Assembly (NCBI RefSeq): GCF_030247195.1
Contig: NC_080672.1
Location: 3,472,001-3,536,000 of the forward strand
Origin: Topomyia yanbarensis
Lineage: Eukaryota > Arthropoda > Insecta > Diptera > Culicidae
Reading direction: 5' to 3'
Length of the DNA: 64,000 bases
The notes beneath the pieces are model-generated. The model was not told the DNA's origin. It did not search any database and saw only the letters and a program-made list of their open reading frames with translations. Positions 3,005 through 56,170 of the stretch are shown here, piece after piece. A program made the translations under genes and the position numbers. Position 1 is the first letter of the stretch, and each line of letters opens with the position of its first letter.

Positions 3005-4984
3005 TTATAGACGGTTGAAAATGAAAGTGAAATTTGACAAATTTGACTTTTTTCTTGAATGTCGATAAAATTTTTTTTTTCATCAAAATTTATTGAAATA
3101 ACAGTAAGTCATAGGAAATTTCATCTATTTAATACATTATATCCATTTCTCATTTCAAGTAACTACGAGAGGCCCTGCACTTATCAAAGTAGGACGATGT
3201 TTCGTGCGCAGTGGCGCCATTTTGGATTTTCGAAAAAAGATCATTTTCTAATTATCGATAATTAACGAATAAAAATCAATAGCAAAAGTCCGTATGTTTT
3301 TTTATTTTTCCACAAAAAAATCTCAAATATTGCTTGATGTTCCGCCGAATCCAGGAGAAGGTCCCGTTAAGACATAAACCATCGGGATAGTGTTTGTGTG
3401 ACAGGTTCCAATACTTGCTTGGACACGAAACAACTGCCTGTAGAGCTCAGCTACTGTATCAAAGGAGGCATCTGACACTCAATATCGTGCGAGAGCCAGC
3501 CTTCTTAGATCCTGGTAAGATGAAAAAATCATTGCTTGTCCACTATCGGCTGTCACTTTTCCTTGGATGAATCGAGCACCATCCAATGCATTATTCAAGT
3601 TTTTCGTAACTATATCTTGAGGCTTCTGAACGAAAAATGAATCGGAAGACAAGTGAAAACTTTTTTCTTACAGCCTACTTTGATTTGATTTATGTGGTTA
3701 CTACCTAGCATCGCTATGGTAACAAGTGTTGAAATGTGCTTATCAAACACTAACTAAACTATACTGACGATTATATCAAAATCCTAGATTAAGGGGGCTT
3801 GTACTCATCAGATCTATTTTTTTTCTTTTCCCATGTTTCGAAAGAAAAACGGTTTAGAGTGATTCTCTTCATGGTCCGGAAATTTAAGTTTCAAAATGCG
3901 TTTCCCACTGAACATTGTTATTTAAGATAACTATGTGTTGAATAATGCAGAAAATCTCAATCTTTTTTGCTCTCTTGTTTAAGGTATTATTGCTATAAAG
4001 GGAGTCAAATAGAATGGTATAATATTCCTATGTCCCATTGATGGCTATACGGAATGAGTTCCATTATGACTAGCGACACTTCTATGAGTTCCATTATGAC
4101 TAGCGACACTTCTATGAAAACTATTTTCGTCTTATTTATGGGTTGAATATACGAATATTTCCATCAAACAATCCATTAATAATGCTATATGTGAATGATC
4201 ATTTAAAACAAATTCAAAGCGTTGGGAAAGGAACAGTTAATGCTAATTACAATAAAAAATATATTTACTATATTTTCATTTATAGATCGTGAATTCAACA
4301 AAAGATAGTTTATCTCAATTATTAAAGCAGACAAACTTAGTCATGATTTTAGTTATTTTTGTTCTTGTTATCGTAATATTTTATTTTAGAACTTACTTCC
4401 ACGACACTTGACACGAAATGTAATATGACTAATGTTCATGATATCAGCAGTTTTACAATGGTATTCGTAAATTCTCGTCGCCTATCTTGTTCTGTGAATT
4501 ATATCACGCACACTATTTGGGATTCTCAGCGCAGTTTTCGTTTTCTATCCAGACATTACAATGAACCTTATCAAACGAATTTCGATGTTCGTGATCCTAA
4601 TAGTTTTTTTTTTATATCTAACGCTCGTGTCTATTACTATGGCCGCTAGCTGCTTGGCATTTCATAAAACAGTTCATGGAATAAAAATGATTCCGCGAAT
4701 AATTCTCCAAATTTCGTGAAGGAGTTCCCGGGAAAATTTCATTATCATGCTGTATGAAATTGTAAATGATTAGCGATGTCTTCTAAATATCACCAGCACA
4801 CAAAATAGATTGTAAATCAAGTACTAAGCATCATGAACCAGTTCAGGAATACATGAATAATATTTTCTGATTTTGCAAACTATTTCACGAGCACGGATAT
4901 TGGATCGTCCCAATATCTCATTGGAGATCATGAATTGGTTCACGATAATTGAATGGATTCATGAATAAAATTTTGAATTTCGTG
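3005..4984. other. non-coding stretch with a 30-bp tandem duplication
   Basis: No gene is supported. The clearest local structure is an exact two-copy tandem duplication at 4054-4083 and 4084-4113 (unit starting ATGAGTTCCATTATGACTAG). The remainder is AT-rich with no recognisable coding frame. Confidence 0.45.
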
Positions 4985-5290
4985 AAATAGTTCACGAGAA
5001 CATATCCAGAATATTTTGATTTTGTGAACTAAGGCCTATATTTATGAAAATCATCATAAGTCAACCTGTGGTTTTATAATTAATGTTCATAAAGTTGTGA
5101 ACTAGTTCGCGTACTGAAAATCGCATTAGAAATGACGGCGGAAACCGTGACTGAAGTTCACAAAACAAAGACAAATGGTTCCACTGAAATAAGCCTTATG
5201 CGGGCGTTACTGAAGGGAAATTGAGCATAAATATAAAACTCATGATTTTGTTCATGGTCCTGTTTTCATAACGTAAAAACCTGTTTTAAT
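4985..5290 (-). repeat. dispersed repeat, related copy at 40671-41004
   Basis: The reverse complement of this stretch aligns along most of its length with 40740-41000. Both share GTAACGCCCGCATAA, GTGAACTTCAGTCA and CACAACTTTATGAACATTA in the same order, at roughly 80 percent identity by eye. The related copy starts with GCACGGAAAAAAATT, a motif also seen inverted near 13360. Probably a non-autonomous DNA element; class not determined. Confidence 0.5.
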
Positions 5291-5304
5291 CAACCTAGTG
5301 GTGC

Positions 5305-6109
5305 AATTGTGCCTTTCTCATTTGTCCAAACTACGATTCCATGGCTCATTATGTTCAATACAATGGTGAATATTACATATTCAGTACGGTTTGCACATGG
5401 TACATACAATGGATCGACAGCCACGATTTTGAGATAGCATGTGTCGACACTGAGATATCGCTTGATACCTGCGCCTAATCAATGAGGAAGATCTGTTAAG
5501 AAATTTTATACTAGTTATAATTTGAAAGTAGCAACCCCTTACTGCATACTCCTACCTAAGCCTATACAAGCCAAAAAAAATTTTGTTCGGGATTAGGTTG
5601 ACGATTTTTAGAGCGATTGCATAACCTTTCTATATGAGAAAGGCAAAAATGTGCCAAAGTCAAAAAGTCCATTTTCGTCAAATTTTTTTTTCGAGATTAC
5701 TTCAAACGTTTTAAAGTCATTTGGTATCCAAAATACAAATTCGATTTTGAAATTTTACCTTTCTGCCCCCTTTGAGAATTTTTCATTTCAGTTTATATGG
5801 GAATTTGCTGTGTGGTCGCACGCTTCAGCCCGTAACTCCGGAACCAGAAGTCCAATCAACAAAAAATTAAATAACAGCCGATCGGAAGGTTGTACCTTTC
5901 ATTTAAGACTAGGTTTGTGCAAATCGGTCCAGCAATCTCTAAGAACAGAGGTGCCATTTTTTCCACATACACACATACACACACACAGATATTTTCCGAT
6001 CTCGACGAACTGAGTCGAATGGCATATGACATTCGGCCCTCCGGGCCGGGATTAGGTTGACAATTTTTGAAGTGATAGCATAACCTTTCTATATGAGAAA
6101 AGCAAAAAT
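5305..6109. mobile_element. MITE-like element with GCCTTTCTCAT termini
   Basis: The left edge reads GTGCCTTTCTCATTTGTCC and the right edge reads ATGAGAAAAGCAAAAAT, which are imperfect inverted termini. A 60-bp sequence beginning GATTAGGTTGAC is present twice in direct orientation, at 5591-5650 and 6050-6109. That suggests two overlapping copies or an internally duplicated element. No transposase is seen. Confidence 0.4.
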
Positions 6110-47280: not shown

Positions 47281-47609
47281 TACAAGGTCCAAAAAGCGTC
47301 GAATCGCTATGATCGGCAGAATACGGTGCGCGGGAGTTCTACATTCAACTGTTGACGAAACCGCATTGTCCCGTTACGGATGATGAGACTTATGTGAAAG
47401 CAGATTTCCGACAGCTTCCTGGGTTCCTTTCCATCCTCACTGCTCGTCATAAGTTTGACGTCTTTGGTGATATTAAAAAGCAAAAGATGTCTAAGTTAAT
47501 CAAAAATGCATAATTTGGCAGGCAATTTGCTCGTGTGGAAAGCGGAATATCCCGTTCGTGACAACCTCAATGGTCAATATTTGAAAGAATGCCTCCACAA
47601 GCATCTACA

Positions 47610-48030
47610 TTAGACTGGTTCAATTTTTGACTTTTAGCTCCACCATGATTCCTTTCATGGCCCTTAGTAATTGTGCAAATTTTGGTACCGATCGGTTGTA
47701 TCTACGGACCCACCAAAAATTTCAAAGTTTGTATGGAGATTAGTATGAAAAATCGGTTAAAATTGAAAATAAATTCTTAAAAAATCACCTCATCAACCAA
47801 TTTATGAGAACACTACACATTTTTAAAGGTATTTTTCTACTGAACACATTCGTGGAACATTGCAAGTTTGTGAAAATTCGCTGAGAAAAGTTATTACTAA
47901 AGAGGCAAGTCATGCTTCAAAACAGGTGGATTTTATTATTAATCATAGCAACCCTGTTTGAATAGCTACATCTTCCATATAGGAGTGGTGGGTTGTAAAG
48001 ACGCTGAATCCCTCTGGATAAAGACTCGCC
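47610..48030. repeat. left long terminal inverted repeat
   Basis: It pairs with 55441-55862 in inverted orientation. Shared landmarks are TTAGACTGGTTCA, GGCCCTTAGTAATTGTGC, AAAAATTTCAAAGTTTGTATGG, AAATAAATTCTTAAAAAATC and, at the inner edge, TCTGGATAAAGACTCG. A short stretch near 47965-48010 differs between the arms. Confidence 0.85.
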
Positions 48031-48053
48031 AACTCTATCTTATTCTTATTTTT

Positions 48054-48186
48054 TATCTGTCAGTGTCATTCCAATCGAGCACGAGACCTGTCAAAAGCCC
48101 GCAATCCGAAGAAAATCGCTTCGAATCCTTCTGGAACGAGGGCCATTGACAGGTCTCGTGCTCGATTGGAATGACACTGACAGATA
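48054..48186. repeat. perfect 41-bp hairpin at the inner edge of the left TIR
   Basis: Bases 48054-48094 are the exact reverse complement of 48146-48186 (arms start TATCTGTCAGTGTCATTCC), with a 51-base loop. The right arm of the big element lacks it, so it was probably inserted into the left side alone. No clear target duplication is seen. Confidence 0.85.
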
Positions 48187-48191
48187 AATGG

Positions 48192-48215
48192 TACACGCTC
48201 GTAAAAAGTTACTCA
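48192..48215. repeat. inner inverted repeat, partner at 55402-55425
   Basis: A perfect 24-base inverted match begins TACACGCTCGTAAAAAGTTA on the left and is mirrored at 55402-55425. GGTACACGCTCGT occurs again at 48413-48425 in direct orientation. These repeats could be the ends of the gene-bearing element proper, or subterminal transposase binding sites of the larger one. Confidence 0.75.
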
Positions 48216-48546
48216 GATTCTGAGTACTTTTAACTCAGTTTTAAATGATGTTCGTAAACGTCAAAAATTGAGTTGTCATGTATAATATCTCTGAGTAACT
48301 CTGACTCTATTTTTGGGTATTACACAAGAAACCGTTTTGGAGTTACCAAACGGAAAAGCCGTTTCTCGCCAAGTTAAAAATTCCAAGCGTCATCCGCCAT
48401 TTTCCATTAGTAGGTACACGCTCGTTTAGTTATCGCTCATCACTTTTTCACAAATAAAAATTTGTTCAAATATTTATAATAGTTGAAGCTAGAGTTGTAG
48501 TGTGTAAAATACATTTTAATTGAAAGAGTGGATTTGAACAACCAGC

Positions 48547-51434
<2,888 letters not shown>

Positions 51435-51550
51435 TAGGGAAATAAACTTGGAAATAAATTTATAATAAAATAAACAACAATCAAGAAGGTAGTGCAAACA
51501 ACTTGAGATGTCACTTTAAACCTTTATATATACTTATTCGCTCTTTTCAG

Positions 51551-54511
51551 CCCAAAAAATAAACGATCAGAACCTAGTTCTGCTCAACGATGCCGACCTA
51601 GTTGAAATGGGGATAATCGAAAAAGGATCCCGTCTAACAATTCTTAACATAATAAAAAACTATAGTTCTGAAGCTAATCCGACCAAAGATAAAATTGATG
51701 AGACTTCCACTAATGTTCAAAATTTGGTAAACTTTCTACTATAATTACTGTAAGCGCTTGTCGTACTATACATATTTAACGTTTTCAGATTAACCGTTCG
51801 ACATTCGAAGATGACGCAAAACTCCGAATGAAAATTTTGTATCCAATTTTGGATCAAGGGATCGTACCAGATAAGGACGGTTTAAATCATCTTACACGAG
51901 TCGCATGCAAGCAAATGGAGACTCAAATAATGGACGGTCAAAGGCAAGTAGAAAGTTTTATTTGTTACTCTACTAGTGCATCAAACTATGAACACTCCTT
52001 AAAGTGTGATAGAATGAATTGTTTACATTGAACCGCACGAGTCTCTCCGCTAGAGCAACCTTGCGGCGAAATGCGCAATGCCTATACATATTTATAGGGC
52101 TTACTGCCAATTTCTTTATCCTCGCTTAAATTTTAAACCGGGTTCACCAGTACGTTTAAACCTGGTTAAGACGTTAAGCGAGAATGAAGAAATCGGCCCT
52201 TAGTAGTCCTTCGAGCAAATATGCAGGTGATCTAACACTGTCTATGAGCAGAGAAAAGCAATGCCTTTCGTTGTGAAGCTTCTATTTCAAAAAACATCGT
52301 AGTCAATCAGTATCATGCATTATTACTTCATTGAGCCTATGAAACTATGAAGTATGCATAGTAATGAAGCACGGCCAAACAACTTCACTTCCGATTATAA
52401 ATATAAAGAAATGTATGAAACACAGTACAAACTGCTAGAGGAAAACACATAGTTATCAGTTCTTCGCATCCTGATTTCAATATTGACCATTCTTTTCACA
52501 TCTTCAATCTGGTTCGATTTATAAACTTCGGCATAAGAACGTACATGCGTCTTTGACGGTGGTACTTAGAAAGCGTAATTCGTCATGTTCCGGCACAAAA
52601 TTATAAAGACGACCGACGACGACGAATTATAATAACTTAAACATTTAAACCAACAGAATTTAATGGTATACAATTTCTGTTTATAGCGAGCGTGTTTATT
52701 TGTTTACATATACAGTTCAATCGTAAATCGACCAAAGGGTCTAACTAAGCCGCAATGTCGTTGAATCGAGCAACAGCGATGCCAGATTTACAGACTGTGG
52801 ACAGATTTGCTGCACTGAGAAACAAAAATATGCAGAATTAGCATACTTTCATTCCCGTCTCTTTTGCTGTAATTTATTTTCATGCATTTTCTAGCATATA
52901 CTTCTAGTAAATATTCAATGAGTGGATAGACCGAATACGTCCAATGCACAAAATTTGCAGCAGAAGAAATGAGAGGCAGATCAAAAAGTATGATATCGGT
53001 GATTAAAAAAAAGTTCTGCGTATGCCTGGTCCAGACATTTACAGACTTTTAAAACAGTAATAAACTGACCGATTTTCTTCAGAAAATAATAGATGTGTCC
53101 CAGCATGCAAAGAATTACGAATCAAATACCGTTCATACTTTTACCATTTAGATTTTTTTTAAGAAATTTAGAACTTAATCTTTCACGGAATCTTTTTGGT
53201 CTTTTTCGGAGTAACGAACCAATGATCTCTAAATGCGCAGGTATCCTTCTGTTGATCAACAGCATGCGGCAGCTGTTCAAATCGTAAAATTATTTCCACA
53301 ACTTAGTAATACGCGAGTCACACCAACTGCTCCTGATGAGGTTTGTTATTCTATGCTTATTTAATTTCTCTAATATAATTATAATTATTTTCATGCTAGT
53401 CATTTTTCTTTTGGCGCAACGGAGGCAAGGAAAAGGGTGCTCATACTGGCATGATATTTCATCGCATCCGGAATGTCATCAAACAGCTACCTGCAGAAAA
53501 ACATAAATATAATCGAGGAACTATGCCTGTAGAAGAGTCCGTTTCAACTGAACTTGTAGAGCGGGCTCAATTGCTCCGAGTAATGCTTGCATCGGCATCA
53601 GTAGCAGAACATATTTGTGATGAAATGGACCGATGCTTTCCAGTCCTCAAACTGTTATTAAAAGAAAAGAAACCCGTTAATGATATCTTGGATATGTTTC
53701 CACACCTGTGTTCATATGAAGGATTGGTGGTAACATGTTTATTTTTTATTATTTACTATTTCACTTTATGGTATTCACGGAACATATGAATATTTATATC
53801 ATATCACTTTTTCTAGATTCGTCAAATGTTTGAGAGATTGTATCCTAACAGAACAGAAGGTCTCAAAATCGAGGATGTCTTCTCTCAGTGTCTATCTTAT
53901 TCACCGTCCAGATTCTCTAGAGTAGAAGATGGTGAGATATAATTTTTTTTAATTTAGCCCAAAGGTCTGTCATAAAATTTTAAATTTGTAAAACTATTCA
54001 CAGATCACATTCGAGGATGCTTGAGAATAATTTCTCATATGCCAATTCGCGGACAAAAAAGAACGCTGGTAGGCTGTCCAACTGTAGGCGAAGAACATTC
54101 GGCTTCAATTTTAATTCGTTGGATTGGGGTAAATGCAATATAATATACATAAGGTTAGATGTAATGATTTTATATCATCATTAGGAGTGCTTAGATACAT
54201 ACGTGGCATCCCCCGCAACTGATTCCAAACTACACATGGTGTGCGTAGCAAGCCCGATGAAAAGAGGAAATTATGCCGTCATTTGTGAGAAAAAAGTTAT
54301 ATTCGAGACTAACAATTCTATTCATGCAGTGGAAATTTTATTCAAATGCCACGCAGTTCTCGGAGTGGAGGTGCCACCTAATTTTAGAATGTTTTGGGAC
54401 TTTCTGGCATGTGCCATATATAATATAATTCCGCACAGTCAGAGGACAACTGTGAATAGACTCGTCCAGACTTTTATTGAAGTTTCCCGCGCACGTATTG
54501 ACAACAAATAA
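51551..54511 (+). CDS. SAM-domain multi-exon protein (SAMD3-like)
   Basis: Predicted exons: 51551-51726, 51789-51943, 53241-53340, 53400-53729, 53817-53931, 54004-54128, 54185-54511. All phases agree and every intron ends AG; all donors are GT except GC after 51943. Exon one encodes the second half of a SAM domain (LVLLNDADLVEMGIIEKGSR). Later segments include ILYPILDQGIVPDKDG, VQIVKLFPQLSNTR, FWRNGGKEKGAHTGMIFHRI and LVGCPTVGEEHS. This layout recalls proteins annotated as SAMD3-like in fish and insects, from memory. No start codon lies in the first exon listed. Exon 48547-48598 has the right phase to join it, giving 459 residues in total. AATAAA is at 54556. Function unknown; a transposition partner is possible. 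Confidence 0.6.
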
Positions 54512-54792
54512 AAGGACAACTTTTTTATACAATACTTACTAAAAACCATAAAATTTAATAAACAGAAGTTTCTTTAATTATTGTTGTAAAAATATTCCAT
54601 AAGAAAAGAAAGACTGCATTGTGTTGTATCCAAAACAAAATTTTGACGGCCAATTTCTTCACTGGATGTAAACCGGTTTAGTTCCAGTTCAAATGCAACA
54701 ATCGATCATGAACCAATTTAAATAGGAATCGGTTGTTGCATTTCTTCTTACAGAAACCATTCAGAATTGCAAGTCATAATCCGGATGTTTCT

Positions 54793-54956
54793 CAGTAAAG
54801 TTCAGTCAGAAATGAGCCGGAGTTCCGGCTGGCTCCAGTCAGTATTCCGGCTCCAGTGACACAACCTATTCTAACTAGAATCGGTTGTGTCACTGGAGCC
54901 GGAATACTGACTGGAAACAGCTGGAATTCCGGCTCATTTCCGGCTGAACTTTACTG
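54793..54956. repeat. imperfect hairpin with GCCGGAATTCCGGCT-type arms
   Basis: Arms of about 70 bases (CAGTAAAGTTCAGTC outward, GGCTCCAGTGACACAACC inward) are reverse complements with a few differences and an 18-base loop. It sits between the SAM gene and the right subterminal field. Likely a small inserted MITE. Confidence 0.75.
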
Positions 54957-55401
54957 GGTTTTAATGAAATATTGCACTCATAAATTGGGTAATATTCTAC
55001 CCAAAAACTGAGGAATTACAACTGGCTTTGTTGTCTACTCAAAAATTGGGTAAGCTTCTGCTCATAATATGAGTAAAAATCGATCAATTTTTGGTTTTGT
55101 TGAAGTTCTACTGAACCCAAAATTTGAGTAATGTTCAACTCAAAGTCTGCGTAATAATTACTTAATTTTTGGTTTTGTTAAATTTGTACTGAACTCAAAA
55201 TTTGAGCAATGTTGAACTCAAAATCTGAGTACTAGTGAAGCACTTTTGGGTTTAGTGTAGATAATATTGTACTCAAAAACCGAGTAATAATTACTCAGTT
55301 TTTGGTTCAGGCTGGCTTACTCAAATTTGAGTAACTCCGGAATTACTCAATTTAAGGGTTGTTCCACTTTATCTGGAAATGGGTGGGATTAAACTCATTT
55401 T
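54957..55401. repeat. subterminal field of ACTCAAAATTTGAGTAA repeats
   Basis: Short self-complementary words built on ACTCAAAA and GAGTAA occur about ten times in both orientations, for example near 55020, 55075, 55125, 55195, 55270 and 55335. A smaller set lies at the left side (48205-48310). Clustered subterminal repeats are typical transposase binding sites. Confidence 0.65.
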
Positions 55402-55425
55402 TGAGTAACTTTTTACGAGCGTGTA
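55402..55425. repeat. inner inverted repeat, right copy
   Basis: Exact reverse complement of 48192-48215. It is followed after about 15 bases by the inner edge of the right long terminal repeat. Confidence 0.75.
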
Positions 55426-55440
55426 AACAAACGATTGACG

Positions 55441-55862
55441 CGTCGAGTCTTTATCCAGAAGGGTGGTAAGCCTAGTTTACACTTGTATAATGATGGAGCT
55501 ATTCAAACAGGGTTGCTATGATTAATAATAAAATCCTCTTGTTTTGAAGTCATGCTGCTTCTTTAGTTAATAACTTTTCTCAGCGAATTTTCATAAACTT
55601 ACAATGTTCCACGAATGTGTTCAGTAGAAGAATACTTTTAGAAATATATAGTGTTCTCATGAACTAATTGATGAGGTGATTTTTTAAGAATTTATTTTCA
55701 ATTTTAACCGATTTTTCATACTAAATTCCATACAAACTTTGAAATTTTTGGAGGGTCCGTAGACACAACCGATCGGTACCTAAATTTGCACAATTACTAA
55801 GGGCCATAAAAGGAATCAGTAGAGCCTGGTGGAGCTAAAAGTCAAAAAATGAACCAGTCTAA
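55441..55862. repeat. right long terminal inverted repeat
   Basis: Mirror of 47610-48030, ending GAACCAGTCTAA. It is followed by the duplicated TCTACA and then the resumed Tc1 transposase. The stretch GTGGTAAGCCTAGTTTACAC near its inner edge is inverted in the copy at 41005. Confidence 0.85.
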
Positions 55863-56170
55863 TCTACATCCACTTCTGAGGTCTCACAGGTCTCACGACT
55901 TACTCGAAAGCTGTTTTGTAGTAGTACAAGGCTAAGGAGGTCAATTTCGTACCAACGGGTCTTATTACCCTGAACGCACTGGAATTCCAACCAATTGAGA
56001 AATACTGGGCCATCACGAAGCAGGCACTCCGAAAGCATCCTAAGGCAGTGAAATCGGTGGTAGAAAAGAGGGAAAATGAATTTCCACACAAAAACAAGTC
56101 AGTCCAATACGATCTTATGAGCAGTGTTGAGTGTTGTAGCTGCATTTGTATATGGCTATGGAGGTGAACA

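Follow-up and report, generated by a model that had tools for sequence, protein, structure and literature searches.

The 64,000-nucleotide stretch analysed here (the window; C3:3472001-3536000, contig NC_080672.1, in the 1.17-Gb assembly of the sabethine mosquito Topomyia yanbarensis) contains a gene-bearing DNA transposon of 7,230 bp, which is inserted at a TA dinucleotide within a gene-less foldback repeat of ~1 kb that in turn lies within a Tc1 gene. A first-pass annotation, made from the sequence alone, had merged these two nested elements into a single feature, an arrangement that, uncorrected, could be taken into repeat libraries as a single chimera. On sequence comparison the gene-bearing element is young and recently spread, and its gene pair is clearly mobile. 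We consider it probable that it is a CMCT-clade, EnSpm/CACTA-like transposon in which one transcription unit is processed in two ways, yielding a RAG1-like transposase and a TnpA-like partner with a SAM domain.

The borders of the gene-bearing element are defined by its other copies (counts refer to distinct copies unless stated, L046 and L057 being one copy and L044 the window itself). Two full copies, L056 and L057, align to the window solely from ~48178/48194 to 55424/55425, carry no outer arms, and end in CACGCTCG...CGAGCGTG with 2-bp duplications, so the ~420-bp inverted repeats proposed by the first-pass annotation are not the transposon's own ends. These ends are CACGCTCGTAAAAAGTTACTCA..TGAGTAACTTTTTACGAGCGTG, bounded by duplications of TA in the window, TT in L056 and TA in L057. 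Ten further copies all possess the left end, identical over its 22 bases and followed on the outside by ten different flanks; the right end lies within the fetched 301 bases in five of them, with duplications TT, TA, TA, CT and TA, and is displaced or lost in the other five. A 2-bp duplication is present in every copy having both ends in hand (8/8). Additionally, the foldback copy L004 runs uninterrupted across the inner insertion site, which is therefore unoccupied there, while L002 and L003 are too divergent at this position for occupancy to be judged. The shared borders, the 2-bp duplications and the empty site together set the element at 48194-55423.

The ~420-bp TAGACTGG arms are the halves of the foldback repeat. 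The long inverted ends reported by the first-pass annotation do exist, with 251 nt matching at 93% and the right arm matching positions 4-429 of the left query at 87%. Alignment of the tips across other copies places the arm border one base inside the originally proposed TTAGACTGG and replaces the 6-bp TCTACA duplication with one of 8 bp, ATCTACAT. Arm-bearing loci were examined at 38 sites (23 + 15, window included), 29 of which had both ends and nine a single end within the fetched stretch; the 8-bp flanks of the two-ended loci agree at 8/8 positions in 22, at 7/8 in six and at 6/8 in one. Complete copies besides the window (n=28) measure 0.5-1.05 kb. Since these are too short to hold the genes, and since two full gene-bearing copies lack the arms, arms and genes belong to different elements; the search for further copies with the same termini, proposed at the outset, thus went against the structure first described while supporting the mobility of the gene pair. 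At the outer empty site, the Tc1-like frame resumes across the foldback as ECLHKHLHPLLRSH, as had been recognized, though it shifts further on.

hAT-type elements generate 8-bp duplications of the form nTnnnnAn. The first 23 foldback loci all carry T and A at positions 2 and 7, respectively (one side per copy), with exceptions to this form at L036, L040 and L042 in the second set of 15, and the family (L002-L043) is hAT-like in this respect. A literature search found no new insect superfamily with 8-bp duplications. The tips of the family, comprising loci L002-L043 together with 47611-48191 and 55426-55861 of the window, are TAGACTGGTTCA.

The transposase, which combines C2H2 fingers, a catalytic core and a BAH-like C-terminus, carries a DDE triad with C2C and H3H motifs, the pattern of the CACTA/EnSpm-Transib-RAG1 clade. 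Its catalytic fold is predicted to be RAG1/Transib-like, the model of a relative, P0002, being best matched by RAG1, the recombinase of antibody genes. Among 42 relatives, ten match the Pfam family Transposase_21 at E<=1 (best E 1.4e-4) and three match the Plavaka model weakly. Of the 60 PDB sequence matches listed for the transposase profile, out of 123, almost every one was to a zinc-finger protein and fell in the fingers, the top match being an RNA-editing protein at E 3.1e-6 over profile positions 32-74, and a viral fold library gave no match at E <= 0.001. Membership of KDZ/Zisupton, suspected from a protein motif and the 8-bp duplication, was ruled out by the motif order, the fold and the duplication's belonging to the foldback. 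In the 40 bases past the transposase stop there are four AATAAA signals, and two more lie at and past the SAM stop.

The second gene consists of seven downstream exons that are consistent in phase, with a GC donor at one intron, in agreement with the first-pass description of a C2H2 gene and a SAM-domain gene. Its exon 2 covers positions 24-64 of the 66-position SAM profile, and because it holds just the later part of the domain, it requires a preceding exon that ends in phase 1, a role that exon 1 fits. The SAM gene accordingly seems to begin with one more exon (48547-48598), apparently common to it and the transposase gene; the transposase frame sits between exon 1 and the remaining SAM exons, and exon 1 joins both acceptors, that of the transposase exon and that of SAM exon 2, in phase 1. 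In the window family the exon 1-SAM join is present in annotation, where the NCBI protein P0054 (LOC131681122) matches the predicted joined protein letter for letter through exon 3. In another mosquito, Armigeres, the NCBI model P0016 apparently splices exon 1 to the transposase, beginning with MENLEKKLDAESFQKLTG, an exon-1-like start at the protein level, followed by a zinc finger. Moreover, a single NCBI locus, LOC131694093, is annotated with both a transposase (P0017, isoform X1) and a SAM protein (P0050, isoform X3). One RNA may make both proteins. In the PDB the SAM domain is matched weakly (Polyhomeotic-like 3, E 0.011).

Two length differences occur in the introns of this unit. The first intron contains a (TA)n array of ~290 bp (48617-48908), and the spacing between exons 1 and 2 differs in L056 and L057; in the large SAM-gene intron, ~237 bp of L056 and L057 are absent from the window copy at 52874/52875.

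The association of the two genes recurs beyond the window. Among 12 other distinct copies that extend ~1.5 kb or more on either side of the match (13 rows, one copy being there twice), 11 contain SAM exons 2 and 3, and 11 contain exon 1 (absent from L049), which bears out the earlier view of an intron-containing DNA transposon whose two genes encode a transposase and a SAM-domain partner. The full pair is also present in a second, diverged family (L081/L083), whose transposase is ~43% identical to that of the window family and whose SAM protein is 37% identical; the order is exon 1, transposase and then a SAM gene with matching exon order, and a few other copies of the family carry stops. The tips of this family, CACGCTTA..TAAGCGTG (8 bases), are flanked by TG and TG, as determined by eye in one copy. 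Both families also share subterminal repeats, ACTCA being the most enriched 5-mer in each. The ends of L081 contain six and eight ACTCA/TGAGT motifs, against 0.65 and 0.69 expected from first-order random sequences, and the interiors are depleted, with 3 against 12.9 expected in the window element and 11 against 19.9 in L081. At a further locus, L082, a homologous exon 1 adjoins a SAM exon across a 56-bp intron. One strand of L082 (positions 4780-5501) carries a tip reading CACGCTC, several ACTCA repeats, and SAM exons 2 and 3 fused together.

Searched at the protein level, the Topomyia yanbarensis genome yields no fewer than 83 transposase-exon matches of 96-100% identity, a lower bound obtained by scoring 83 of 404 candidates. 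No internal stop is present in 75 of the 83 listed matches, and 40 have an open frame of at least 900 codons. Twelve other copies diverge from the window by 0.26-0.46% across ~1,532 bases of the transposase exon, and intact copies exist, such as L056, in which both proteins are open.

The CMCT clade (EnSpm/CACTA, Mirage, Chapaev, Transib, Plavaka and ESTA) is characterized by a DDE triad with C2C and H(3-4)H between the second D and the E, by ends that are mostly 5'-CA..TG-3', and by duplications of 2-5 bp (PMC12730594). The ends CACGC..GCGTG fit this description, as do the 2-bp duplications, including the TG of the single second-family copy. On its motifs, predicted fold and ends, the gene-bearing element is filed as an EnSpm/CACTA-like member of this clade, in place of the undescribed or poorly described group that had been suggested; as its tips read CACGC and not CACTA, it is EnSpm-like rather than CACTA in the strict sense.

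The target duplication of En/Spm is 3 bp. The mosquito element differs from En/Spm in its 2-bp duplication, in ending with CACGC instead of CACTA, and in possessing a SAM-domain partner, a possible poly(A) site directly past the transposase and a BAH-like tail. The tnpA gene of maize En/Spm carries the transposase frame in its first intron, TnpA binds subterminal repeats (PMC2613891), and transposition needs both proteins (PMC1636069, PMC2613891). The mosquito element resembles this system in having a transposase frame, putatively of tnp2 type, set within the first intron of a partner gene of several exons, together with CAC-type short ends, a short target duplication and subterminal repeats (PMC2613891, PMC1636069); the architecture fits by position and by the exon 1-SAM join of P0054. 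For soybean Tgmt*, the duplication is three bases (PMC2613891).

Animal TRC/CACTA elements in print include SmTRC1 from Schistosoma and relatives in Tribolium and Aedes aegypti; their tips are CCC, their duplications 2 bp, and SmTRC1 is alternatively spliced (PMC1636069). The mosquito element shares with them the 2-bp duplication and, putatively, a Transposase_21-related protein, and would share with SmTRC1 alternatively spliced transcripts, as read from gene layout and NCBI models; its CACGC tips set it apart, as does its SAM-domain partner, which was not found in the portions of the TRC account drawn on here (PMC1636069). Plavaka, ESTA and fungal EnSpm elements likewise combine D-D-E, C2C and H(3-4)H with 2-3-bp duplications and with ends that are for the most part CA..TG, but these are fungal, some carry TET/JBP genes, and no SAM gene was found in the parts of that account used (PMC12730594). 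A SAM partner of CACTA/EnSpm or other terminal inverted repeat transposons was not found in the open-licence literature, a search in which Repbase was not covered. RAG1, ProtoRAG (BbRAGL) and Transib produce 5-bp target duplications, and the second protein of RAG-type systems is RAG2-like; in contrast, the mosquito element has a 2-bp duplication, a SAM-type second protein and a BAH-like tail.

Under the proposed mechanism, exon 1 would be spliced to the transposase exon, and the transcript could end at the AATAAA cluster just past the transposase stop; alternatively, the transposase would be skipped and exon 1 joined to the seven downstream exons, giving the SAM-domain protein. The RAG1-like transposase would cut at CACGC..GCGTG and insert with a 2-bp stagger, while the SAM protein would bind or gather the ACTCA/TGAGT arrays near both ends. 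SAM domains often self-associate, and such self-association might help to pair the ends, the role of TnpA in maize En/Spm. It is the gene plan shared with En/Spm that suggests the SAM protein as an end-binding or end-pairing partner, and every aspect of its putative role is inferred. A broader scenario, offered tentatively, is that an animal CACTA-like lineage, mobile now or very recently, has kept or re-invented the En/Spm plan, with the SAM protein pairing the ends from the ACTCA arrays and the BAH-like tail of the RAG1-like transposase reading chromatin, for which the chromatin-reading PHD finger of RAG2 offers a comparison. If active, the element would be a CACTA-like animal transposon with its own partner protein and a large number of near-identical copies, a long open frame being kept by roughly half of those listed; it would allow experimental study of a RAG1-fold transposase working with a second protein, and would let the ancestral or convergent origin of the En/Spm gene plan be asked.

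Several observations weigh against this interpretation. Among the NCBI models, which may be partly ab initio, P0054 continues into the intron past exon 3, P0049 spans exons 4-8 alone, P0050 of the second family (exons 2-8) begins in the intron just upstream of exon 2 and not at exon 1, and P0017 reads from exon 1 straight through the exon 1 splice donor. No single NCBI model found covers exon 1 to exon 8, and it is for this reason that our confidence is set no higher. The SAM_2 match scores 19.4 bits against a cut-off of 20.5, and the addition of exon 1 gave no longer SAM match (13.6 bits, residues 15-54; two of three proteins match, best E 0.0028). Transposase_21 is likewise matched at 16.9 bits against a curated cut-off of 28.6. 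Structure prediction, proposed in the first-pass annotation for both proteins and informative for the transposase relative, returned no usable AlphaFold model of the SAM protein (P0050 with five relatives; predicted local distance difference test, pLDDT, 37.7). L050 is without SAM exons 2 and 3 within 1.5 kb. In L082, the transposase lies on the strand opposite the SAM exons and the remainder of the SAM gene was not found, so this locus is either rearranged, for instance as a deletion derivative, or an element of different gene layout. The transposase frame is shifted in the window copy, in an A-run near 49890-49901, and in L057. Changes relative to the consensus among close copies comprise 18 nonsynonymous, 11 synonymous and one stop (14 rows, two of them duplicates), so that no purifying selection is visible over such a short time.

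Other explanations differ in how they treat the arms, the SAM gene and exon 1. A single element of 8.25 kb, with ~420-bp inverted repeats, both genes and the 6-bp duplication corrected to 8 bp, would account for arms that flank the genes and for the perfect 8-bp duplication; it deserves almost no credence, given that the 28 complete arm-bearing copies besides the window reach just 0.5-1.05 kb (nine more loci being one-ended), that two full gene-bearing copies lack arms and ten further CACGC ends have ten different flanks, and that the inner site of L004 is unoccupied. The SAM gene might instead be passenger cargo or a captured host gene outside the transposition machinery. Neither a fold nor a DNA-binding domain could be demonstrated for the SAM protein, and the annotation places P0052 of Armigeres and P0053 of Wyeomyia at loci separate from the transposases found there; we nevertheless regard cargo as unlikely, because the gene recurs with the transposase in the ~43%-identity family in the same exon order and place, is present in 11 of 12 distinct close copies, occurs along with the same subterminal repeats, and shares one NCBI locus with the transposase as an isoform.

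Slightly better placed, though still improbable, is the reading in which exon 1 is part of the SAM gene alone and the transposase arises from its own transcript starting inside the long exon, which is compatible with most of the two-way processing that we favour. The exon 1 of L082, adjoining SAM exons away from the transposase, agrees with it, as does the NCBI model P0001 of the window family, which starts at an internal Met. An internal start, however, would lose both cysteines of the first zinc finger, and the phase-1 junction of exon 1 with both acceptors and the exon-1-like start of Armigeres P0016 argue for a shared first exon.

Table 1. Coordinates of the nested elements and their genes in the window.
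Feature	Position	Strand	Remark
Gene-bearing EnSpm/CACTA-like element, 7230 bp	48194..55423	+	Ends common to full copies L056, L057; empty site in repeat copy L004
2-bp target duplication TA, left	48192..48193		2-bp duplication in 8/8 two-ended copies
2-bp target duplication TA, right	55424..55425
Left terminal inverted repeat CACGCTCGTAAAAAGTTACTCA, 22 bp	48194..48215	+	Identical in 10/10 further 5' ends
Right terminal inverted repeat, 22 bp	55402..55423	-	Identical wherever the 3' end is inside the fetched stretch (5/10 further copies)
Subterminal ACTCA/TGAGT repeats, left (5)	48211..48296		5 in 48194-48493 against 0.62 expected
Subterminal ACTCA/TGAGT repeats, right (15)	54976..55406		15 in 54924-55423 against 1.0 expected
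Exon 1, phase 1, putatively common to both proteins	48547..48598	+	NCBI models P0054 and P0016
First intron with (TA)n array	48599..48932	+
Transposase exon: C2H2 fingers, DDE core, BAH-like C-terminus	48933..51434	+	Frame shift in A-run near 49890-49901
Four AATAAA signals, between transposase stop and first downstream SAM exon	51441..51474	+
SAM exon 2, later part of SAM domain	51551..51726	+
SAM exon 3, GC donor	51789..51943	+
SAM exon 4	53241..53340	+
SAM exon 5	53400..53729	+
SAM exon 6	53817..53931	+
SAM exon 7	54004..54128	+
SAM exon 8 with stop	54185..54511	+
Foldback repeat (gene-less, insertion host), left half	47611..48191	+
Foldback repeat (gene-less, insertion host), right half	55426..55861	+
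Foldback 8-bp target duplication ATCTACAT, left	47603..47610
Foldback 8-bp target duplication ATCTACAT, right	55862..55869

Within the gene-bearing element, a small inverted motif (..GGCTCCAGTGACACAACC..GGTTGTGTCACTGGAGCC..) is present at 54814-54935, and a similar one lies immediately beyond the right-hand end of the L081 element (L083 ~1760-1900); both probably represent another small repeat.
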